A stretch of 64,000 nucleotides of DNA, taken from positions 1-64,000 of the forward strand of contig RCNN01000045.1 of assembly GCA_003667245.1 (NCBI GenBank), in the 5' to 3' direction. Of the stretch, positions 15,500 through 53,396 are shown one piece after another. Both the position numbers and the translations under genes were made by a program. Within the stretch, counting starts at the first letter, position 1, and every line of letters begins with the position of its first letter. The notes below the pieces were generated by a model. The model was not told the DNA's origin. It saw only the letters and a list, made by a program, of their open reading frames with translations, and searched no databases. The stretch comes from Heterostelium multicystogenum. Lineage: Eukaryota; Evosea; Eumycetozoa; Acytosteliales; Acytosteliaceae.

Positions 15500-17606
15500 T
15501 TAGGTACTGGAATTAAGATTTGTAAGATTTACATTTGGATCCTTCTTCGCTGTCATACTAAGATATCTAAGATAGAAATACTTTCTTCTTGAATATAAGA
15601 CTACGCCTATTGCAATCAAAATGGCTCCTCCAACGAGTCCGCATATCAAGGCAATTTTCCATACTTCAAACTCTACTTTGCTACAAGAGCTATTATCTGT
15701 AGAGACCAGTGCTGAAAAATCTGGATCCAATTGGCATTCTTTACACTGTGGAAGATTGATTCCAATTAAAGCAATCTTTGATTCTGGGTCTGCACTAATT
15801 AATTCATTGTTTGAGTAGGTTTCTCGGCCATCAGAAATTGAATAGTCTAAGAAACGTCCATAGTAAATTACATTGTCTTTTACAATCATCAAAGATTTAA
15901 TAGAGCTCTGATCATCAGTATTAAATGGATCAATTTCATCACCACATCCAATCTTTTGATCTGGATTGTATCCTGTTGCGAAAACCACACGCAAGTAATT
16001 CAAACTTGAGGCAAATGCCCAATTCGACACATTTACTCCAAGCTTCACAGCGTTTGGTGGTAGGTTAAAGCTCTTGGATCCAAATGTAAATGTCCTTGCT
16101 TGAGATGAGAAAGATATTCTTGTTCTAACTTGGAGCTGTTGTTGCGCAGATGAGTTACTTAAAACCATATCATAGTCAATGGTGGTGAGTGAAGTGGAGT
16201 TGTCGACCGTTGTGTTTTTCCATGCATTTGGTTTTATCTCTAGCTCCAGTGATCCGTCGCCACGAATCTCCTGAATCGAAAATATTGAAAATTTAAAGAT
16301 GTATCCATTATACTCGATATTGGCGGATGGATCGGTGTAATTTGGTTTGAAAACACCATTACCATCGCTTTTTAAATTACATTTAGGACCATAGTACTGG
16401 TCATTGCAGTCACAAACTCCGGTAATCTCATTGCACTTTCCATTTCCACTGCATCCCTCATTCAGACATTTAGAGTAGTCATTATTGACTATGGTAAGCA
16501 GATTATGAGAAACAAAGCTATAACCATCAACGCTTACACTAACACTTGCTTTTCCAGGTTTGAGTTGAGAACTTGACAATGAGCAAATAATTTCAGAAGA
16601 GGAAATTTTAAGTATTTGGCATTGGACTGAAGAATTCAAGACTACTGAGGGAGCAGTAAGGTTGAGACCAAAGTTTCCAGAAAGGGTTAGATTTCCACCA
16701 TTCACTGTTAATTGACTGGCAGCAGTGACTAATGGGTACTTTAGAACAAAGTTGTTAATTGAAAATGGGTAGTCTGGTATTCCAATAGCACTTTTACTGA
16801 AAATTCTAACTTCATAAGAAGCTCCATTTTCAAGTTTCAAATTCGGAAGAATACATTGATAGGTACCAGTAGACAATGTATTATTGCATTGTATACCGTT
16901 TACAGATACAAAGTAAGTTGGTTTAGATTCAACATCGAAAACCTTTAGGATCAGAATAGAGGCACTCGTTGGATATTGTTTAATTTCACTCGATATAACA
17001 CTAGGTCGTCTGCATGCATATGGAGTAACCATTTCCACTTGATATTGGCAATAGGGGGAACTGTTTTCGTATACTTTCAATGTAGTTGTATTTAAACCAC
17101 AAGATAGATTGACTGTTGTGGTTCTTGTCTTTTTATTGGCACACGTAGGACCACTGGTTGCATTATAAAATACAGAGATTGCTGTAGTATTGGTTTTCCA
17201 CAAACCAGGTTCTTGACCGGTATTCAACCACGAATTGTCTATAAACTGACATGTTGATATACCAGTCTGTCCTAAATTGATTGAGCAATTATTACTTGTT
17301 CCACAAACTGTCCAGTAATAAATTGACTTTAAAATATATTAATATGGTCATTTCTAGTTGTAAGAATTAATGAATATGGTTAAACCTACAGGATAATTTA
17401 CAAAGGAAACTCCGGACATATTGTATGTTATACTAGTAGTAAATAAAAGACCCCTATTAGTCAAGATATAAAATATAATTCAAGAGATAAATATCATACT
17501 TGACCAAAGGAGAAAAATCAAAATAATCATATTTGCAAGTGGTTAAGCTATTTACAGAGGTAACAAAGAGTAATAGATATAATATATATTTGTGTAACAT
17601 ATACAT
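15500..17606 (-). CDS. MRH-TIG-EGF-ComC type I membrane protein
   Basis: Starts at 17606 with a signal peptide (MYMLHKYILYLLLFVTSVNS). Two introns are removed (near 17390-17515 and 17335-17395), then comes a mannose-6-phosphate-receptor-homology lectin-like region: CKYDYFDFSPL, YYWTVCG, CSINLGQTGISTCQ, TVNLSCG and the closing VEMVTPYAC. A TIG/IPT immunoglobulin-like segment follows (about 16450-16750), then an EGF module (CLNEGCSGNGKCNEITGVCDC). The ComC-type domain has KLGVNVSNWAFASSLNYLRVVFA and YYGRFLDYSISDGR. A transmembrane helix (IALICGLVGGAILIAIGVVLY) precedes a 25-residue cytoplasmic tail. The C-terminal half matches the three receptors at 30.5-43.5 kb, but here an MRH head replaces the leucine-rich head. 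It probably binds glycans or partner surface proteins in cell communication. The 575-codon exon is free of frame breaks. Confidence 0.85.
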
Positions 17607-30461: not shown

Positions 30462-33400
30462 ATGAATTATTTCAAATTATTAGCGACAATATTAATGTTG
30501 TCGTTGGTGATAACATTTACCAACGGTGCTGTGTTAAATGAACCCGATTGTAGGTATTACTAATAAAATGAAATATTTCTAGTTCCTGGCTAATAAATCA
30601 TTTCCAAAACAGTGACATCTATAAGATGGATTTCCCAACAATTTCAATTTGGTTGGCCACTCAACGAGACTGATTGTGCCAAAATCACTCCTCGAATCAG
30701 TTGCACCAATAATGGCACTCATCAAAATATTTCATCAATGTAAGTAAGCTGGATCATTCATTAGCCAATTATATTAATTGTCTATTCAACACCAGTTCTT
30801 TATATTTAAATACTGCCATTCGTACCGTAGTACCACAAGGCAATCCGCCTCAAATAGACGGACTTTACTTTAATGAATTGTTTTTACTATCTCTTGATAC
30901 TACTAATCCTACTGTTGATAAAAGTCAAAATTTGCTTGAACTTCTTCATAAACCTAGTAATAGTAATCTTCAAAAACTCTAGTATGTGATCCAATTTTTC
31001 CAGTGAAGTATCCTACTAATTAATTTATTAGCTTGTATAATTTCAATGATCCAGTCTATGTGCCCAATAATTTTGGAATATTTTTTCCTAGTTTGAGTCA
31101 AATGTAAGTAAACATATATTATATTACTAATATCTTGAATATTACTTTGTTAACGTAAAATTTCTGATATTTAAAATCACATTTAGAGTTATGATTAATA
31201 TGACTTTTCAGTCAAGTCTTCCAAGATCTATGGTAACTCCAAATTTGATGTCCTATACTTGTTCTGATTGCAAGTTCACCAATGAAAGTTATTCCCAAGA
31301 CATTGATTTCAATCAGAAGTATCCATATATTGATTCTTTGTAAGTTGTAAAATGATAGTTGGATTTATTTACCTCTTGTATTAACATTCTATTTTTATTT
31401 TAGAGACCTCTCTTATCCTCAAGAAACACTTTTTGATTTCACAACTGGTAACTTTCCAGTACTCAGAAGATTGTAAGTTTATAAATTATTCTTTTAATTA
31501 TTAATTACTAATGTCTAATCAAAATTTAGTGTGCTTCGCACCAAGCAACCAGTCAATGTAAAGTTTAATGGTTCAAATCTTTTGTCTTATTTGTATGTAT
31601 AATAATATTTTAAGGTTATAGTATACGATTGCAATATATTAATACCATTTAATAAATAGGAAAGTAGTCTCAGACTTACTGGATACTAGAAATATCACTA
31701 ATATAACACTAACAAACTCTTATCCACTATTGGCTGATTTGTAAGTTTCTTTGTTCACAAATGATAATAATATAATAAACTAATATTTATTTAGGTATGC
31801 TACTAATGCCAATATAGTGCCTTCCGACTTATCTCAATTGTCTTTGAAATCAATGTAATTATTAATCATATATAAATATATTTTATTACTAATATGATGA
31901 TAACATTTATATTAAACAGATATCTTCAGCAATCAAGTCCAATAACCAATCTTAGAAATGTGAATTCTATATCGATTATTGGTTCTTTTGCACCAATGAA
32001 CTTCCCTCAAGCGTCATGGATGCAAAACAATTCCGATGTGTAGGTTAACAACTTTATTTAAATAGAAATAATATTAATTGAATCATTGTAGAGTGTTAAG
32101 TAATAACGATATTTCTGGTGAACTACCAGATTATCCATCAATGGGATACTATCCAGTCAGATTAGTATTATACGATAACCCTCGAATTGTAGGTTCAGTT
32201 CCAGAATCTTATTGTTATTCATCAAATTTAGAAATGAGCAATACTTCTGTTACTTCTGTTCCTGACTGCTTTTATTGTGCATGGAATATCTTTTATGGAA
32301 GCTTTGGAAAAGCAGTAAAACCTAGTAATTTTCATTTGCAGTAAGTTTAAATTACATTTATTCCAAACTATTTATTATTAATAATGAATAATATATAGAT
32401 TCAACTTTGTTTCAATACTTATTTGTATTCACTCCATCCAATCCTTTCACAAGAAATATTACATTAACTGGAAAGAATTTGGGTTTTAATAATATTCCTG
32501 GATTGATAACTGTACTGAGAAACAGCCAGTATATGTAAGTAATATTATCAAATCAAAAGAAGAAATTTATCATATTAATAGTATATTACTTTAGTTTTGA
32601 TACCCTTGGAGAACAGTCAGGACAATTTACATTTCAAGTCTATAATAAGAATCATACTATAACCTGGGTCTATGATAGTATGTATTGTATTTAATTAGTA
32701 AATTATTATTCAAGTTAATAATTGTTATAATTATTATAGAAACCGTAATTCACAGTGCTAGTGCTTCATCAAGCACGGAAGAGGGTTTAATTGTATCCAT
32801 TAATGCCACTATAGATGTTGGATTTGATTATTCTATCAACTTCAACGGACAGCCATGTATTATAAGTTTGAAGATAGATGAGGAAATTAGGTGTACTATC
32901 AGCAATTGGGTTGCATCATCCAATAGAATGTTATCAATCAATTCAACCTATCAATTATTTAGTGTTCCATTACTCATACAAAGTAAGACAAATTAGCTTC
33001 AATAGAATCAGTTGCCTGAGTATTAATCAATAATCTATTAAAGATACCCCTGTTGTTACTTCAACCTCAAAACTAAATGAAAAGGGAGGAGATTTAATAC
33101 TTTATGGATACTTCCAAACAAATATCTATACAATAGATATTACCATCAATAACATTCCTTGCAACTATACCAATGGTAACGAGTCAGTCATTGAATGTAA
33201 TATTAACAGCAGCCTTTCTGTTGGATTTGCTGAACTAGTTGTAGTTGTAAATAGTGTAGTATTCAAGTCTAAAACTGTATTAATCATTTGTAAGTAAACT
33301 TTATATAATTATTGAACTATATTAAATCTTATTAAACTTTGATTTAAATTAGATCAACTCTTTGAACCATATAATTGTATTGCACCTGGATCTAAAGATA

Positions 33401-34350
33401 ATGCAGACTGTAGTAATAGAGGAGACTGCCTGGACAATAAATGTATTTGTAACAATGGATTTGGTGGATACTATTGTGAGTCGGAATTGACACCAACAAT
33501 CGTATTCCAACCTAATACAACATCACCTGACATAGCCATTGCCAAAAATAATACGCAATTCAGTTTCAATGTTATTGGAATTGAAGAATTAAATGATTTA
33601 AGAGAAACTGTTACCTCCTATAAAGTCAACCCCAAAGACTGGACCTATTCTTCATCAACTTCTAATGATACCGAAAACCACAAGTATATCATCTCATCGA
33701 GCTTCAATTTAGAGACCAATATTGATCGCTTTACCAAATCAAAGAATATCACTTTTGGTGGATTGACACAAGGTTATCCTGAAAACTCTATTAAGATGTC
33801 GATCACAATCAGTGGATGGTTGTTCTCATCAAACTTGAACACTCTCAGAATTCTATTTGCAACAGAATCATCGTTTGAGCAGTTGGATGATAAATGTAAA
33901 TCAGAAATAGAAGAAAGTCAACAATTTGATTCTTTCAACAACTTGAAGTATTTGACAATCAGCAAAGATGGAGTTAAGTACTTTGGAAGATTCTTGGACT
34001 ATGTGCTATCAGACAACAGACCTGCTTATTCGATGAATGAGATCATCAGTAACTCCACAACAGATCAATCACGATCTGTTGTTATTGGAATCAACATGCC
34101 ACAGAGTAAAACCACTGTGATTGACCCTGATTTCTCTGTTTTAGTAGATTCAGCAAGCGAGCCCAAGGATTGTAAAGAAACACCATCATCTGTATCATCA
34201 GAGTCTTGGAAACTAATTGCAATTATAGTCCCAGTAGGTGTTGTTGCAGTTGCATTGGCAACAGGTATCATTGTTTACGTTTTCAAACGTAAGCAAAGTA
34301 TAAGACAAAATAAACTTATGCAAAGTAGACTTGCAAGACTAAATAAATAG
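30462..34350 (+). CDS. LRR-TIG-EGF-ComC surface receptor, paralogue 1
   Basis: Type I membrane protein starting MNYFKLLATILMLSLVITFTNG (signal peptide). A WPLNETDC cap follows, then about ten short leucine-rich repeat exons, each ending with the first two bases of a Leu/Met codon before GTAAG. One later exon holds a longer LRR block (VLSNNDISGELPDYPSMG) closed by cysteines (VPESYCY...VPDCFYC). Two TIG/IPT modules come next, then an EGF module (CSNRGDCLDNKCICNNGFGGYYC) and the ComC domain (MSITISGWLFSSNLNTLRIL, YFGRFLDYVLSDNRPAYSMNE). A transmembrane helix near 34205-34285 precedes a short basic tail. This is the first of three tandem copies. It is probably a cell-contact or recognition receptor; the ligand is unknown. 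The ComC family name is used by architecture. Confidence 0.85.
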
Positions 34351-34790: not shown

Positions 34791-37700
34791 ATGTTAAAAA
34801 ATAACATTATTTGTATATTATCTGTATTATTATTTGTATTTTTAAATTGTAGATTTTATGTTTGTCAAAGTAATCCTGTATTGACAGAACCTGAATGTAA
34901 TGTTTTATTAATTTTAGATAAAATATTAGATTAAATATTAATTGGAATTTTGTTATTACATTTTTATATAGTAAGCTCACTAAGATGGCTCATTGTTCAA
35001 TATAGATTAGATTGGCCTTTGAATGAGACAGAGTGTTCAAAAATAAGTTCTCAAATAGGTTGTACTAATACTGGAACAGGCATTGAGAATATTAATTCAA
35101 TGTAATAATATTAATTGTATTTCATCAATAACATTTGTTTTCTAAGTTAACATCATTCTTTAAATACTTGTAGAGTTATAAATGATTCGCCTGCTGTTGA
35201 ACAACAATTATATTTACCAACGATTTCCTCATTATCATTTCCAAAGCTAATTCTGTTTAGAGTTGAAAACAAGAATCCTGTATTCGATAATACTAAAAAT
35301 GTTTTAGATCTATTTAATAATGCTGATAATGCCAACATTTCCTTGCTATAGTAAGTTTATAAAAATTTCTACAAAACAAGATTAAATTAATAATTTTCTC
35401 TTTAGTTTTATTAATGTCTATGATCCTGTCGTCTTTCCATCAAATTTTGGACAGTACTTCCCTAATCTTAAATCAGTGTATGATAGAAAAGGAATTGGGT
35501 CAAATTAAATATACTAATAATATTATTATTACTATTATTAAGGATGTTGAACTTATGTACCATAGGATCGGACATACCATCTTACTTGCTAAATTCAAAT
35601 ACTATTTACTTTTCAAATCTTTTATCAACATTTCTACCAGGAAAATTCAAAATTAACTTTGACTTAGATTTAACTTATAGTAGTTTGCAAGTATTGTAAG
35701 AAATAACTAAATATGTCATAATCCCATTATTATTCTAATGAAAATTATAGAAACTTAGTTTTTTCCAACAGACTATGTTCAAACGAAAAACAATTACAAC
35801 ATAAACAGCTCAAATTTTCCTTTGATTCAATCATTGTAAGTATACTATTTTTCTATATAAATTGAATAAAAATATTTATTAACCTTTTGGAAAGGACTTT
35901 AACTTTTAATCAAGATGTTAAAATTGTAATTAATTCAACAAGTTTAACCAAATTGGTAAATTTCATAAACATGAATATTACTATTAAAAATATTAACATT
36001 GTTAACCTAATAGTCAAATTTGGGATCAATTAATTATTTGTCAAATAACTCCGCTCCTTATACAATATTAGATATATCATTGGCCCCTTCTATTTCAAAA
36101 TTGTATGGAATAGGTTTCATATGATCGGAAAGATAATTTATTACTAATAGAAATCTAGAGAATTACAAAAAACATTGTATTACCCTAAGGATTTATCAAA
36201 TTTTCAAAATTTAGCTGATTTGTAATTATACTAGATTAGGAATAATATGTGATTATTTTTAACTTTACTAACTATTTTTTAAAGGAGGTTAACTCAATCT
36301 AATATCCCTGAAAATGTGTCGAATTTAATTAATCTTGAGGTCTACGAATCAATCAGCCCATTTCCACCCAAGAAATGGTTTAAAAAATCAATTTATTCAT
36401 CATTGTAAGTTTGAATAATTCAAAACGAAATCAAATTACCTAATTTATATTTAAGAACCTTAAATCAAAATGGTATTAAGGGACCTATAAAAGACTATCC
36501 TGGTGAAGATTTTTTATTTTTCGAGACTTGTACTTATGGATAACCTGGAAGTAAATGGAAGTCTACCGGAATCATATTGCTATATAAATGCCATTACTAT
36601 AATGAATACCAATATTTCAAGTATTCCAGATTGTTTTTATTGTAGATGGGATATGTTCAAAAGTAGTTTTCCAGGTCTAACACTGTCGTCTAACTTTTTA
36701 TGTGGTAAAGTAAAACATTTACTTTACATATACAACCTTTTACTAAATTACCTTATCATTTTTAACAACTACAGTACCCAAGTTAGAAAAGACTTTATTT
36801 ATTTTCAATGAAAAGAATCCTAATCCAATCAATATGACAATTTATGGAAAGAATTTAGGATGGGATCCAATTCAAAATATGGAAATGGTCTTAGCTAATT
36901 CCAAGTTTATGTATGTATATCGAGATACTGAAAATAATTTAATAATAATTCTAATGTTTTCATTTAGCTACAATAATAATAATTCTTCAAGTGGATCTTT
37001 TTCGGTTTATTCCACTACACTATCATTTAGATGGGTTTATGATGGTAAGCTGATCAAAATTCTTCAAGAAAACTATTTTATTAATTAAAACAAAGTTACT
37101 GAGCTTTTTAGTGCTAATGGAAGAAGAAGCGGACGTGATATCTCTATAGTAATCTATGGAATATATAATGAAACTATGACTTATTCAGTAAAGGTAGATC
37201 AAGTTAATTGTGAGGCAGTTTCAATATCCAAAAACTTGTTGATATGTGCTTTACGAGCTTATCCAACATCTAGATACCCTATTGTTTTGGTAGAAAATGA
37301 ATATCAATCTTTAAATACAACTCTAACTTTCGACAGTAAGTACATTTTATCTCTCAATTAGAAAATTCACTAAAACTATAACTTTATACCAAGACATTCC
37401 AATTGTGACTGCAACATCCAGGCTTTACCAAAATGGTGGCGAATTAATGTTATATGGAATATATTTTGAAATTATTAATCAAATCCTAGTCACTGTAAAT
37501 GATATAAATTGTACTATAACTAGCTCCAATTCATCTTTAATAGTTTGTAATATTGAAGGTGGACTCTCAGAAGGTTTTGCAAATCTAACACTTATGATGA
37601 ACGGAAATCATTTCTTCTCTAACAGTTTATTAATAATATGTAAGTTCATCCAATTTGGTTATAGAAATAATTACTAATTTTAAAGTAGATCCCTCTGTCA

Positions 37701-38677
37701 GTAACAATGACTGTAGGAAAGAAAATACCTTGATTGATTGCAGTGGAAACGGAAAATGTTCAAACAATCAATGTATTTGTAACAATGAATTTGGTGGATA
37801 TTATTGCGAATCAGAACTGACACCAACAATTGTATTCCAACCAAATACAACATCTCCTAATATCAAAGTAATCTCAAACAACACTCAGTTCGAATTCAAT
37901 CTGATTGCTATTGAAGAACTGAATGAATTGAGAGAATCGAAAAGGTCATACAAGTTTGAGAAATCAAATTGGATCTATTCTACTTCATCATCGAATGATG
38001 TTGACAATCATAAATACATCTTGGAAGATAGTAATATCGAACTTAATGCCGAGATCAATATTGATCTATTCAAGAATGACAAGAATATTACCTTTGGAGG
38101 TATGGAACTAAACTATCGATCAAATACATTGAAGATGTCGATCACAATCAGTGGATGGTTGTTCTCATCAAACCTGAACACTCTCAGAATTCTATTTGCA
38201 ACAGAAACATCATCCGATGATAATTGTCAAACAGATATCAAAGATAACCAACAATATGATGCACTCAACAACTTGAAGTATTTGACAATCAGCAAAGATG
38301 GAGTTAAGTACTTTGGAAGATTCTTGGACTATGTGTTATCAGACAACAGACCTGCATATTCAATGAATGAGATCATCAGCAACTCTACAACAGGACAATC
38401 ACAATCTGTTGTTATTGGAATCAACATGCCACAAAGCAGATCAACAACCATTGACCCTGACTTCTCTGTACTGATTGACCACGAAAGTGAACCAGACTGT
38501 ACCGGATCAATCTCATCTAAACCAATCAAATTGGCAGCAATTATTACGCCAATAGTGATTATTGTAGTTGCAGCTGCCATTGGTACGACTATCTATCTGG
38601 TGAGACGTAAGAAATTCCACAGGCAAGATCGAAAAGTGCAAAACAAACTCAACAAACTTAAGAAATTAGATGTATAA
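34791..38677 (+). CDS. LRR-TIG-EGF-ComC surface receptor, paralogue 2
   Basis: Same architecture and exon plan as its neighbours. Signal peptide MLKNNIICILSVLLFVFLNC, WPLNETEC cap, a series of short phase-2 leucine-rich repeat exons (34975-36400), and a Cys-closed LRR end (LPESYCYINA...IPDCFYCRWD). TIG modules lie at 36780-37650. The EGF module (CSGNGKCSNNQCICNNEFGGYYC) and ComC domain are in one long exon (about 37686-38677), with a transmembrane helix near 38540-38600 and a Lys-rich tail. The exon 37736-38470 is almost identical in nucleotides to 42502-43237 of paralogue 3, while the LRR parts differ strongly. One or two LRR exons (35470-35760) show possible frame problems. Confidence 0.82.
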
Positions 38678-39568: not shown

Positions 39569-42500
39569 ATGAAATCCTCAACAACCATCAAATTTATATG
39601 TTTTATTTTGATATCTGTACTTTTCAATCAGATTGATAGTCAACTTTATGAAACAGATTGTATGTACATTGAGCCATTAAAAGTAACAATCATCATCATC
39701 ATCTTATTTTAATTAACAAATATTTCATACTTTCATAGTGAGCTCTCTGCAATGGATAATTCGACAATACCAATTGGGATGGCCTCTGAATGAGACAATT
39801 TGCGGGAACATTAATTCAGGTTTGAAATGTATCATGGATGGAACTGGTGAGAGAATAGAAGAATTGTAATAACCTTAAATTTAAATACTAGTGAAAAATT
39901 TACCAATAACTAATACTTTCTGTCATTAAGAAAAACAAACATTGTTTCGATTGCAAAACCACAAGGATCCCCAGGCAATATTCAAAATTTAAGTTTTCCT
40001 TTTATTAAAGTACTATCTTTGGACATAAATTTCCAAGTTTATGATTCTTCTAAAAATGTATTTGAACTTCTTCATTTTGGAAATAATTCAAATCTAAATC
40101 AGTTGAAGTTTGTATAAAGTGTAGAGCTATGGTATTATAAGCTAATATTAATTCCTATTATTTCATAGAATTACTCAACCTCTCGATCCAATAGTATTAC
40201 CATCCAATTTTGGACAAAATACTAATTTAAATTATGTGTAAGCTAATCGCTTTAAAAATTTCGAAAATTTAACTAATTTGAGGGTTAAATAGAGAGTTCA
40301 AATATTGTAAATTTAGATCAAATATACCACAGACCTTATTTACACCATCAACTATATATTTTTCAATGTCTAATTCCTTATTTGATTTAGGAAACTATCA
40401 AGTTTACTTTGATCCAACTCAATTTTATCCTAATTTACTTCAATTGTAAGGAGTACTCAAATTATTTTAAAATTCTTTTAATTAATCTTTTTTATCATAG
40501 ATATTTGGTTTTCTCTGATGGGGCCCCAATGGGTCATACTATTTTTAACATAAATGATACTAACTATCCTAGTCTTCAAACTTTGTAAGTAGACAAATAT
40601 CATTTTAAAAAATTATTACCTAATAGATCAATAAATTTAGTGAAATCAAGGTATCTCAACCAGTTCAAGTTTTTATTAATTCTACTTTAATTAAGAAGAT
40701 GTAAGTTTAGATTTTTATTAGATTGGTAAATTGCTAATTATTATTACCATAGTGGAATTAATTCATATAGTTCTTATTTTTATACTTTGATAAAATCATC
40801 TTTGATAATATCTTATGCTCCAATGGTTTTCAGAAATGTAATCTAAAAATTAGTTAATTAAAATATTCAATTATTCTAACTTAGTATTTTACATTTAGGA
40901 TTTTAGAAAATATTATAATATCTCCACTGGATTTGACATTTCTTCCATCAATTAGAACATTGTAGGTGATAAAATAAGTAAATAATAACAATCAATATTA
41001 ATATTTTCTATAAATCATAATAGAGTGCTTACTAAAACAAATAACATTACAAATATTACCAATCTATCCTCCATTTCACTGTATGAAGCACCCTATAGTT
41101 TTCCTCCGGCAAATTGGTTTGACAAGAAAATGCTTGCGACAATGTAATAATTATTTTATCCTTTTATAATACTATAATAGGTTACTAATTTGAAATCTAA
41201 AGAAAAATGAGTGGAAACAATATTACAGGACCTATCCCAGATTATTCAAAACAAGGACTATATTTGAATTATCTCAGTATTTCTAATAACTACCTTTTAA
41301 CAAATGCATTCCCCGATTATTTTTGTTACTTGTCAACTATTTATGTAATTTCAACAAACATTACATCAGCCCCAGATTGCTTCTATTGCTCGTGGAATTC
41401 TTTCAAGCCAAATTTCCCCCCAGATGTATCACCACCTAACAATTTTAAATGCAGTAGGTTAAATTTAAATGAAAAAAATCAAAGACTTTGATCTAACATT
41501 TTAATAACAATATAAATAGTCCCTAAGTTGGATGTAGATAGGTTCATTTACAGTCCATTGAATCCAAATCCAATAAATATGACAATATTTGGAAAGAATT
41601 TGGGTTGGGGACCATATCCTAAAATTCAAGTTATCCTCGCAAATACTCAGTTATTGTAAGTTAATTCTTTTTTAAAAAATCATTCCTATATTAATCCTAC
41701 AATCATAGATTCGATAACAAAAATATGTCCCGAGGCTCTTATACATTCACAACTATGTATTATACAAATCTAACTTTTAGTTGGGACTACGATAGTAAGT
41801 GGTATTTTAAATTTAGTTTAATTACTTAATGATTACTAATTTTCTATGTTTAGTTACTCAACTTTTTAGTGCTTATGGGGTTATAGAGACTTTTCCATCA
41901 AATATCGATATTTATGGAGTTTTTTAATACTTCGATGAATTATTCTATTTCAGCCAATAGAGTAAATTGTGAAGTAATTTTATTGAATTCCAACTTATTG
42001 ACATGTTCACTTGTATCGGCATTACCTTCTGTAAAATTTCCTTATGTTACTGTAATGAATGATATTCAATCATTGAATACAACTTTAAAATTGAATAACA
42101 GTATGTAGAATTAAAACAATAATTGGAAATCTTATATATTAACTTATTGAATAGATATTCCTTTGGTGACATCCACATCAAAACTATACCAAACAGGTGG
42201 AGATCTGATACTTTATGGTTATTTTTTTAAAAATGTTACTGATATCTTAGTAACTGTAAAATGATATCAACCCTACCATTGTAAATTATAATGAAACAAT
42301 GATCCATTGTAAAATAAGTGGAGGATTATCTGTTGGTTTTGCAAGTCTCAAATTGATCATGAAATAATAATCAATTTACTTCCAATACGATATTAGTAAT
42401 TTGTATGTATACTACTTTAATTAATTATCGATACCAAAGATAACTAACTGTTAAATAGATCCTACTTTCACACGAAATTATTGTAAGAAATATAATATGT

Positions 42501-43456
42501 CAATGGACTGCAGTGGAAACGGAAAATGTTCAAACAATCAATGTATTTGTAACAATGGATTTGGTGGATACTATTGTGAATCAGAACTGACACCAACAGT
42601 TGTATTCCAACCAAACACAATATCTCCTAATATCAAAGTAATCTCAAACAACACTCAGTTCGAATTCAATCTGATTGCTATTGAAGAACTGAATGAATTG
42701 AGAGAATCGAAAAGGTCATACAAGTTTGAGAAATCAAATTGGATCTATTCTACTTCATCATCGAATGATGTTGACAATCATAAATACATCTTGGAAGATA
42801 GTAATATCGAACTTAATGCCGAGATCAATATTGATCTATTCAAGAATGACAAGAATATCACCTTTGGAGGTATGGAACTAAACTATCGATCAAATACATT
42901 GAAGATGTCGATCACAATCAGTGGATGGTTGTTCTCATCAAACCTGAACACTCTCAGAATTCTATTTGCAACAGAATCATCATTCGATGATAATTGTGAG
43001 TCAGATTTCAAAGATAACCAACAATATGATGCACTCAACAACTTGAAGTATTTGACAATCAGCAAAGATGGAGTTAAGTACTTTGGAAGATTCTTGGACT
43101 ATGTTTTATCAGACAACAGACCTGCATATTCGATGAATGAGATCATCAGCAACTCCACAACAGGACAATCACAATCTGTCGTAATTGGAATCAACATGCC
43201 ACAAAGCAGATCAACAATCATTGACCCTGACTTCTCTGTACTGGTCCAAAGTGATATTGAGCCAAAGGATTGTAAATCACCTAAATCATCCAATTCAATT
43301 AATTTAGTTGCCATTATTGTACCAATTGCCATTGTCGCTGCTTTCTTATTGGGAGCAACGATCTATATAATACAACGTAAACGATATCAAAAACAAATGA
43401 AAAACATGAATCACAAACTCAACAAACTTAAAAATAATAATAAATCTATTAAATAA
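39569..43456 (+). CDS. LRR-TIG-EGF-ComC surface receptor, paralogue 3 (several apparent frameshifts)
   Basis: Third tandem copy, starting MKSSTTIKFICFILISVLF (signal peptide). The WPLNETIC cap, short LRR exons, MSGNNITGPIPDYSKQG block and Cys closure (FPDYFCY...APDCFYCSWN) are as in its neighbours. TIG modules follow at 41520-42410, then an uninterrupted EGF-ComC-transmembrane exon (about 42460-43456). By comparison with paralogue 2, single extra bases occur in the runs 41920-41925, 42258-42261 and 42362-42364, all within the TIG region. Either this copy is starting to decay or these are sequence errors. The transmembrane segment is near 43300-43370 and the tail is Lys/Asn-rich. Function is inferred as for the other two. 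Confidence 0.8.
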
Positions 43457-50167: not shown

Positions 50168-50214
50168 AAAATGTTAATTTTAAATCAGCTCGCCTGCGGG
50201 AAATCGAATTTTAG

Positions 50215-51331: not shown

Positions 51332-52131
51332 TCATTAATATCAAGACTTCTTGGAACAAGTCGTCGTCCCAACTGTGTTGTTTCTTCTTTTGCAACCATA
51401 ATTGTTTCGCTTGGGGATTCTCTTTAAACGCTGAAAACATGACAGTCAAAGATCGGATTCTGGTATCAGGTCCAAAGACCATCTTGCAAAGCGCCTTTTC
51501 GACTTGTATTGCAACTTCTCCTAACACGAGGCGTTCATGTGATATCACCTTTTTCAATGTAGCGATCATTGTTTCAAGTTTAACTATCTTTCCCCCAAGT
51601 CCATCTATATGGTCTAACAATTGTCCTATTGAAACTTTATCTTTCTCTACAATCTGTGTCAACTGTTCTACTTTCTGTATAAGCTCTTTGTTCTTTTCCT
51701 TTAACCCATCAACATCTTTCGTTCGATTCTCTACTTCTTTAATAAATTTATCTCTCCATTCTTCTCTTTCCTTCTTTGTATTCTCCAACTCCTTCTGTAA
51801 CTCCTCAATTTCTGTGTAATTAATTAACAAAAACTTGTTTATTCATAATTCAAGTGTTCAATGAATGAATTTATTGTACAAATTTAAATATATAGTTTAC
51901 ATTCAAAGATTTATTGGTATGATAACTCCTTAGATATTTCTAATAATCAAATATTCACTACCCAAAGTTAGTAGAATCCCTTTATTAATTAACCATTGTT
52001 CCATCACCAAAGTCTTCAACCCAAAATAATTCACTTCTATCTTTAATTTGTAGAAATTCCATAGAGAACTCAGAAACCCCAGTGACAATTACAGATTTCT
52101 TCCAGAACCGCAATGATGTCCAACCGATTGT
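51282..52131 (-). pseudogene. Coiled-coil protein fragment, 5' end missing
   Basis: The main open segment 51282-51811 follows a TTACACAG acceptor and encodes a regular coiled coil (EIEELQKELENTKKEREEWR ... KNKELIQKVEQLTQIVEKDK), then HERLVLGEVAIQVEKALCK and FSAFKENPQAKQLW. A likely upstream exon at 52008-52131 (LRFWKKSVIVTGVSEFSM, DRSELFWVEDF) can be joined in phase through GTGATG at 52007. Open sequence stops at 52132, and the SINE-like element starts 36 bases further on. No ATG was found for the chain. It may have been truncated by mobile-element insertion, or the first exon may lie beyond. Family not recognised. Confidence 0.4.
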
Positions 52132-52158
52132 TTACCAGGATGGATAAAACAAAAAATT

Positions 52159-52167
52159 ACACCAAAA
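52159..52167. repeat. Target-site duplication, left copy
   Basis: ACACCAAAA, identical to 52573-52581. It abuts the poly(A/T) tail of the SINE-like element on the plus-strand left side. Confidence 0.7.
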
Positions 52168-52572
52168 TTTTTTTTTTTTGTTTTTTTTGTTGTTATAACC
52201 ATCAGTTGTTTATTTAAGGTAGGGTTTAGAAGCCTACAGATTTTCTTTTTACAACCACAGGCCGGTTGTGATGACCATCATTTTATAGAGGCATGACTGC
52301 CTATTATTATTTGGAGCAAGGTGTTTCAACAGTGGACTGTTAAGTATTTCGAAGCGACAGAAGATTTTAAAGAGTACACCAATGGTTTACGTAGTTGAGG
52401 GCTTCGCTTGTCAATTTACATATTCTTCATGGCGGGATGGTATCATACAGACTTGAAAGTCATGGGTTCACTGGAAGTGTATGGGGAAAAACTGGAAAAC
52501 CCGGGATTCGAACCCACGACCCAAGGCGTCACAAGCAGACTACCATACCACATCAGCTATTCTGCCTTGGGC
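52168..52572 (-). mobile_element. tRNA-derived SINE-like retroelement
   Basis: Read on the minus strand, the element begins GCCCAAGGCAGAA. It has a Pol III A box TAGCTGATGTGG (complement of 52548-52559) and a perfect B box GGTTCGAATCC (complement of 52504-52514) at tRNA spacing. The head also resembles a tRNA in its 5' and 3' acceptor bases but cannot form D or anticodon stems, so it is not a working tRNA. A body of about 300 bp without ORF follows. It ends in AACAACAAAAAAAACAAAAAAAAAAAA (given here as positions 52168-52194 complement), an A-rich tail. The whole unit is bounded exactly by the 9-bp direct repeat ACACCAAAA. It lies 40 bp downstream of tRNA-Tyr. No reverse transcriptase is present, so it would be non-autonomous. 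Confidence 0.7.
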
Positions 52573-52581
52573 ACACCAAAA
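52573..52581. repeat. Target-site duplication, right copy
   Basis: ACACCAAAA, identical to 52159-52167. It directly precedes the tRNA-like 5' end of the element on the minus strand. Confidence 0.7.
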
Positions 52582-52621
52582 CAATACAGTTTTACCCGCA
52601 TACGGGGTATAAGAATATAAA

Positions 52622-52711
52622 TCCGACTTGCCAGACTCGAACTAGCAACCTTTTGATATCTCTTGTGATACAAACTACAGTCAAACACTCTACCACTTGA
52701 GTTAAAGTCGG
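52622..52711 (-). tRNA. tRNA-Tyr(GTA) with intron
   Basis: On the minus strand the acceptor CCGACTT pairs with AAGTCGG, with discriminator A. This gives the C1-G72/A73 identity set of eukaryotic tRNA-Tyr. The D arm is ACTC/GAGT. The anticodon stem is TTTGA/TCAAA with anticodon GTA. An intron of about 17 nt starts one base after the anticodon, as in all eukaryotic tRNA-Tyr genes. The T arm is GCTAG TTCGAGT CTGGC. Confidence 0.95.
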
Positions 52712-53396
52712 ATATGAAGAAATTTTTTTGTCGTTATTGCCTATACTTATTCCTTTTCAAAAATAACTCTGACCAAATAAACAAACTGTTATCACTCATT
52801 CCAGAATCCAAACTGAGAGGCAACAATCAACTGGAAAGATGATGATCCAAACTATTCAGAACCGACCACTCAACTGACTATTATAAGATTGATATACTTT
52901 TCAATTAATAATAGATTCAATAAACTAGCTTTTGAATTTGAGATGGTTATAGATGATAACCATCCTATTCACTTGTCTCAAAAAAAAAAAAAATCATTTA
53001 CAAAAAAAAAAATTTCTTCCTACACAATAAAATACTCTCCTAATTGCACCGTCCCCAGTATCCTAATATTTGCTGAAATATTTCATGAAAAAGGAGTGCC
53101 AAACAATATGGCAATCGATTATGAGAGTTGTCTTCAATAATATCTTTTCTGCATTATAATATGACTGAACCTTGCTCTTTCCATGTAGTGAGTAAAGCCA
53201 TTCTCAATGATGATCTTCCAACCATTAAATTCTTGGATCAAAAAAGAATTGAACATGTTAATCAGGATTTTCTGCAATTTAAGTCAAAAAGATGCATATA
53301 ACTACACTTAGCTTTTTAAACTGATTAAACTTGGAGTATAATCATTTATATTAACAACAAGTTTCATTTTAATAAAATATTTTAGTTTATTCCCAG
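52712..53396. other. Intergenic region
   Basis: AT-rich with long A runs (52980-53012). An open stretch at 52889-53140 has no coding character. No feature was recognised other than the 5' flank of tRNA-Tyr. Confidence 0.5.

Follow-up and report, generated by a model that had tools for sequence, protein, structure and literature searches.

The ‘window’, as the term is used here, is the whole of the analysed stretch of Heterostelium multicystogenum DNA, i.e., 64,000 nucleotides. One protein encoded there is 92% identical to its counterpart in Heterostelium album PN500 and 83% identical to that of Acytostelium subglobosum. The element of concern lies on the minus strand, behind a tRNA-Tyr gene of the same orientation, and starts with GCCCAAGG (Table 1). 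A preliminary description, made from the letters of the window alone, had proposed that this is a tRNA-derived SINE, and both the coordinates supplied for the element and those for the 9-mer which abuts its two ends turn out to be exact. Present as well, as had been claimed, are an A-rich tail and A and B boxes of Pol III type, spaced as in a tRNA. The body, described as ORF-free, is more precisely one without a sizeable ORF: of the six ORFs overlapping the SINE that start with ATG and reach 30 amino acids or more, five (34–87 amino acids) cross its ends, such that the only one found wholly inside is just 36 amino acids long.

Table 1. Position of the SINE, its parts, and its neighbours within the window.
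Feature	Position	Strand	Basis
SINE, full-length copy, 405 bp including A-rich tail	52168..52572	-	Sequence read, genome matches
Target-site duplication ACACCAAAA, copy adjoining SINE 5′ end	52573..52581		Sequence read, flank test
Target-site duplication ACACCAAAA, copy adjoining A-tail	52159..52167		Sequence read, flank test
A-rich tail (element ~383–405)	52168..52190	-	Sequence read
A box TAGCTGATGTGG (element 14–25)	52548..52559	-	Read from sequence
B box GGTTCGAATCC (element 59–69)	52504..52514	-	Read from sequence
Inverted repeat, 5′ arm CCCAAGGC	52564..52571	-	Sequence read, shuffle test
Inverted repeat, 3′ arm GCCTTGGG	52520..52527	-	Sequence read, shuffle test
TTTT and TTTTT runs 3′ of B box, where Pol III might terminate early	52487..52499	-	Sequence read
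Palindrome CCCGCATACGGG, variant of tRNA-flank motif, between tRNA and SINE	52595..52606		Sequence read
tRNA-Tyr(gta) gene with intron, presumed landing target, 48 bp upstream of SINE	52621..52712	-	Gene call

The genome assembly totals 29.72 Mb in 528 contigs. Scanning it with three short patterns, allowing up to 3 mismatches, reveals 63 heads, 61 middles, and 80 tails, versus none at all given reversed patterns. A search with the whole unit yields at least 40 matches at 97–100% identity, plus shorter ones, with 40 of 102 candidates scored. These dispersed copies rule out the alternative that the window sequence is single copy. Within the collected loci blastn then recognizes 116 SINE fragments, 84 of which retain the 3′ end and 54 of which are full length, where ‘full length’ describes a match that, out of 382 positions, begins no later than position 4 and reaches at least position 370. 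Some copies are without the 5′ end: 30 of the 84 fragments retaining the 3′ end start after position 4, in part as these are the far sides of an insertion. The full-length copies diverge from the column majority by a median of 0.53% (range 0–3.2%), with at least 5 of the 54 identical to that majority, and this near-identity implies that the family has been active recently. Tails vary in length as well as in scattered C residues.

Dispersed copies should possess distinct target duplications, and many do. After leaving out the 16 of 79 copies that were without flank sequence, exact flank repeats containing at least 5 non-A bases are found with 29 of 63 copies, versus 4.8% of swapped-flank pairs. 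Under a laxer limit of at least 4 non-A bases, 32 copies display duplications of 5–13 bp (median 9), given a control value of 14.3%. Copies stop at these direct repeats, which rules out the alternative that they run on past them. The remaining 34 of 63 copies fail the stricter version of the test, some of them having extra bases at the 5′ junction. The tRNA-derived SINE reading consequently is borne out by the scans along with the copy ends, and the window element is one copy of a dispersed, non-coding, tRNA-headed, A-tailed SINE family of approximately 400 bp.

Two kinds of irregular copies may be mentioned here. On C135, C38, C473, C49, and C92, a SINE that is otherwise complete is immediately preceded by additional short segments of its 5′ end, which may be products of template switching at the 5′ junction. 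At L023:1436-1777, about a third to half of a SINE, i.e., its 5′ part, stands inverted ahead of the 3′ half, like a twin-priming product, and no target duplication is seen in the flanks of that copy.

The head of the SINE is related to a tRNA, as judged by its alignment score. ARAGORN calls no tRNA within the SINE, and Rfam returns a single, weak match from the tRNA clan (tmRNA, 14.9 bits, E 0.0017), which falls under its cut-off. Aligned to its best-matching tRNA (Val), the head nevertheless scores 54, versus a maximum of 52 among 200 shuffled heads, with Val, Lys, and Cys all scoring within one point of each other and so precluding the naming of a parent. The T-runs after the B box, which are recognized in 51 of the 54 full-length copies, could serve as an early Pol III stop. 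As to the preliminary suggestion that the element’s own stem replaces the tRNA fold, the inverted repeat on which this was based is real, as only 58 of 5000 shuffles of the head contain one equally long, and 45 of the 54 full-length copies preserve its core. The minimum-energy fold of the window SINE, though, leaves the CCCAAGGC and GCCTTGGG arms unpaired with each other, and the predicted stability of that copy is no better than that of its shuffles (z 0.03). A stable fold is thus rejected for the window copy, and a replacement of the tRNA fold by this stem finds no support.

The preliminary description did not include what is the most important property of the family, which is where its members land. 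For 41 of the 54 full-length copies, the 3′ end of a tRNA gene on the same strand lies 48–152 bp (median 77) upstream of the SINE 5′ end, with just one copy standing at 152. These 41 tRNA genes bear at least 21 different anticodon labels, a few are unnamed by ARAGORN, and one is recognized by Rfam only. Within the DNA examined, the nearest upstream tRNA is on the opposite strand with 0 of the 54 copies. By arithmetic, random, oriented insertion would place about 0.04 of 54 copies in this interval, assuming 418 tRNA genes, that is, the number given for D. discoideum (PMC5633606).

From a different perspective, such a distribution might reflect survival, with SINEs inserting at random, absent any targeting, and only those copies found behind tRNA genes persisting within a compact genome. 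Dictyostelid genomes indeed are gene dense (PMC5006619), so harmful insertions should be lost. We consider selection of this sort to be highly improbable as an explanation for the pattern, given a strand which never varies, so narrow an interval, a chance expectation that is so small, and copies which are too nearly identical to have had much time for sorting. The loss of all but harmless copies might have thinned the distribution to some extent; as the whole cause it is disfavoured by the unvarying strand and by how young the copies are.

Alternatively, blocks containing a tRNA gene together with a SINE might have been duplicated, resulting in spread that does not involve retroposition. A flank between tRNA and SINE is in fact shared by the copies on C492 and C493, as expected should one block have been copied, or assembled, twice. 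These two copies may represent a single event, and the count then becomes 40 of 53. Among the 54 upstream flanks, however, only 4 pairs are more than 70% alike, with 3 of those pairs consisting of LINE-C tails (for which, see below) or SINE heads, and distances, isoacceptors, tail lengths, and duplications all differ between copies. Block duplication accordingly has next to no chance of accounting for the family.

Scanning the genome for reverse transcriptases (RTs) results in 60 matches, with two groups, here LINE-B and LINE-C, having a longer, LINE-like RT match along with poly(A) ends. LINE-B is represented by a 4.55-kb copy inside of a SINE on C458 (L070), with a 298-amino-acid ORF that has no Pfam match, followed by an endonuclease match that is weak (22.0 bits, given a cut-off of 24.5) and then by RT. 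The 3′-region pattern of LINE-C is present at 23 sites, and the piece examined holds an RT. The best named relatives of LINE-C, with 7993 candidates scored, include RT proteins from Dictyostelium, Heterostelium, and Acytostelium at 34–51% identity. Both groups appear to be ‘TRE3-like’, an expression which refers here to likeness in terms of position, RT, and database neighbours.

LINEs and other repeats are also what is seen with the remaining 13 of the 54 full-length SINE copies, each of which is directly preceded by repeat DNA of another kind. At C2, C23, C55, C56, C70, and C92 this is LINE-C, although at C70 the two are separated by about 250 bp of different sequence. At C77, C80, C168, and C217 it is the 3′ part of one repeat family that directly precedes the SINE, with a same-strand RT match of a 477-bp class found 2.5–3.7 kb upstream. 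At C340 the upstream stretch matches that of C168 at 99% across 305 bp, and an RT match of the 477-bp class lies on the other strand. The upstream repeat at C27 is found at other places after a chromodomain (Pfam Chromo, 34.3 bits) and therefore probably is an LTR. At C159, lastly, it is a dispersed repeat of ~390 bp that is upstream. A piece of this same ~390-bp repeat also is seen beside the window SINE, at 52072-52146, where 75 bp are 92% identical to the C159 gap.

Beyond the intervening repeat, a same-strand tRNA can be found for 7 of these 13 copies (C2, C23, C27, C159, C56, C70, and C92), and for C92 it is a tRNA-His located at the place predicted from the length of LINE-C. No tRNA was located for 6 of the 54 copies (C55, C77, C80, C168, C217, and C340), with that of C55 absent from the place predicted behind LINE-C; the genome-wide tRNA scan is one in which 63 of 1723 candidates were scored.

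LINE pieces also occupy the zone behind tRNA genes more generally. Considering those at least 60 bp long and starting within 200 bp of a tRNA gene, there are 8 matches at 7 tRNA genes, starting 51–198 bp behind the gene, and 7 of the 8 are on the tRNA strand. Three of these 8 lie inside of a SINE copy. Nested insertions, that is, LINE-B or SINE found inside of older SINE heads behind tRNA genes, are observed at L070:1115-6000, L016, L011, L027, and L033, and their existence implies repeated use of this zone.

That several insertions are found inside of SINE heads (C60, C186, C458, C61, and C44) might be viewed instead as an indication that these heads are themselves preferred targets, or that Pol III machinery bound to the SINE’s own head brings it to its site, as opposed to the address of a LINE being used. 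All five of these heads, however, lie no more than about 140 bp from a tRNA gene, so the tRNA would be target enough, and LINE pieces are found in the same zone. A head-based address seems quite unlikely, therefore, with the head as a landing target of its own being inseparable from the tRNA gene nearby.

A different sort of connection between SINE and LINE would be a 3′ end that is common to both. For LINE-B this is rejected, as its 3′ end and that of the SINE display no match. The SINE and the LINE-C tail match at 14 of 19 positions, which is reached by 0 of 60 A-run flanks, filtered to remove those with SINE- or LINE-tail words, and by 2.8% of shuffles. There is also an 18-of-20 match (0.4% of shuffles), which is situated about 0.47 kb inside of the LINE-C 3′ region and not at its end. 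A tail that is shared between the SINE and LINE-C may be viewed, as judged from these alignments, as a weak candidate.

The DNA separating tRNA gene and SINE has a feature of its own. Behind 76 of 82 tRNA genes examined is a 10-bp palindrome, either CCGCATGCGG (60 genes) or ATGCGCGCAT (16 genes), given up to 2 mismatches, that starts 15–27 bp after the gene. In addition to the one listed in Table 1, the window contains a further palindrome at about 50190-50199, and others are present at L093–L110 as well as at the SINE loci. Outside of SINE loci, the palindrome is seen with 17 of 18 additional nuclear tRNA genes versus approximately 1.3% of shuffled flanks. Two of what were 20 such extra flanks (L091 and L092) were judged bacterial by eye and left out of the palindrome counts. 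These flanks, on C523 and C510, respectively, are GC-rich, with CCA encoded, and their bacterial look suggests that the assembly probably holds contaminating contigs. The genome holds the exact 11-mer ACCGCATGCGG in 28 places (41 matches, counting both strands), versus 13 matches for the reversed word, and at least 8 of these 28 places are at tRNA genes identified in this analysis.

The palindrome may be a Pol III terminator or instead a boundary. T-runs of at least 4 precede it in 46 of 76 cases; in a stretch of the same length after it, they occur in 34 of 76. Its use as a ruler from which insertions are measured finds no support, since the distance from SINE to palindrome is equal in spread to the distance from SINE to tRNA gene (SD 23.8 versus 24.0 bp). 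No description of this palindrome behind tRNA genes was found in the open-access literature.

Dictyostelids are a main model for the study of retrotransposons to which tRNA genes offer safe sites. Their TRE3 LINEs (TRE3-A to -D), which end in poly(A), share the orientation of the tRNA gene and lie 40–150 bp downstream of it (PMC5911963, PMC5006619), which is to say in the zone that the SINE also occupies. TRE3 elements, however, are autonomous, several kb in length, and encode an ORF1 as well as an ORF2, with APE, RT, and zinc finger, of which none is present in the ORF list of the approximately 400-bp SINE. The element thus is a SINE by the features tested and is TRE3-like in its landing only. 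TRE5-A.2 is similarly non-autonomous, dictyostelid, and tRNA-gene associated, being an ORF2-less variant of TRE5-A that is mobilised in trans (PMC5633606). It consists, though, of LINE sequence and lands upstream, whereas the SINE possesses a tRNA-like head, has no proven LINE sequence, and lands downstream. Skipper-2 retrotransposons, too, are found behind tRNA genes in dictyostelids, P. pallidum included (PMC5006619, PMC5911963), but these are LTR elements with integrase and chromodomain.

Outside of the dictyostelids, tRNA-derived SINEs with poly(A) tails make use of L1-type LINEs (see also PMC3414825). Like the present family, they have a tRNA-like Pol III head, an unrelated body, an A-tail, and target duplications, and need no tail in common with the LINE, but those usually cited are dispersed rather than located behind tRNA genes. 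The R2 and R2/R1 SIDEs of Drosophila are also short and non-autonomous, and keep the target of a site-specific LINE; they differ in that their target is 28S rDNA and in being R2/R1-derived, co-transcribed with rRNA, and without a Pol III head (PMC3414825).

That dictyostelids are not known for SINEs, as had been supposed initially, holds only in part: RepeatMasker ‘SINE’ counts of 88 for D. discoideum and 57 for D. purpureum have been published, and no family is named in the passage with these counts (PMC4683709). In five dictyostelids, P. pallidum among these, Spaller et al. surveyed the 3 kb surrounding every tRNA gene, and the word SINE is absent from the main text of their publication (PMC5006619). 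Either P. pallidum is without this SINE family or the family went unreported. In a search of the open-access literature, no SINE landing at tRNA genes was found.

Landing behind tRNA genes, on the same strand, suggests that the SINE borrows the tRNA-seeking machinery of larger elements. Probably this tRNA-derived, non-autonomous SINE owes its insertion to a TRE3-like LINE that acts in trans, by way of the poly(A) tail. RNA polymerase III would transcribe the SINE from its internal A and B boxes, and the resulting A-tailed RNA would be taken up by the proteins of a TRE3-type LINE found in the same genome. Those proteins, presumably drawn to the zone behind tRNA genes, would nick the DNA there, with the SINE RNA then copied in by target-primed reverse transcription. 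Weighing against this account are the T-runs after the B box, the absence of a 3′ end clearly common to the SINE and either LINE, the 6 copies for which no tRNA was located, and the 34 that fail the stricter duplication test.

More tentative, and on the whole somewhat doubtful, is a stricter version of this proposal. Here the SINE would land specifically behind tRNA genes owing to the target choice of a TRE3-type LINE with which it shares little beyond a poly(A) tail. The address then would reside wholly in the LINE protein along with the host Pol III apparatus, and the zone would start just behind a palindrome that, as Pol III terminator or boundary, may shape the landing of retroelements. 

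If A-tailed RNA without proven LINE sequence is indeed carried to tRNA genes, then the address is in the protein. A gene-less SINE at tRNA genes in this way allows what RNA contributes to the choice of target to be told apart from what protein does. The use of safe sites, furthermore, would itself be open to parasites, ones which, going by the youth of their copies, have recently been active.

Elsewhere in the window are three tandem, paralogous ORFs (33343-34350, 37637-38677, and 42455-43456) that, by eye, display EGF-like along with membrane-anchor-like stretches, and the stretch at 15500-17338 looks, also by eye, to be akin to these three.
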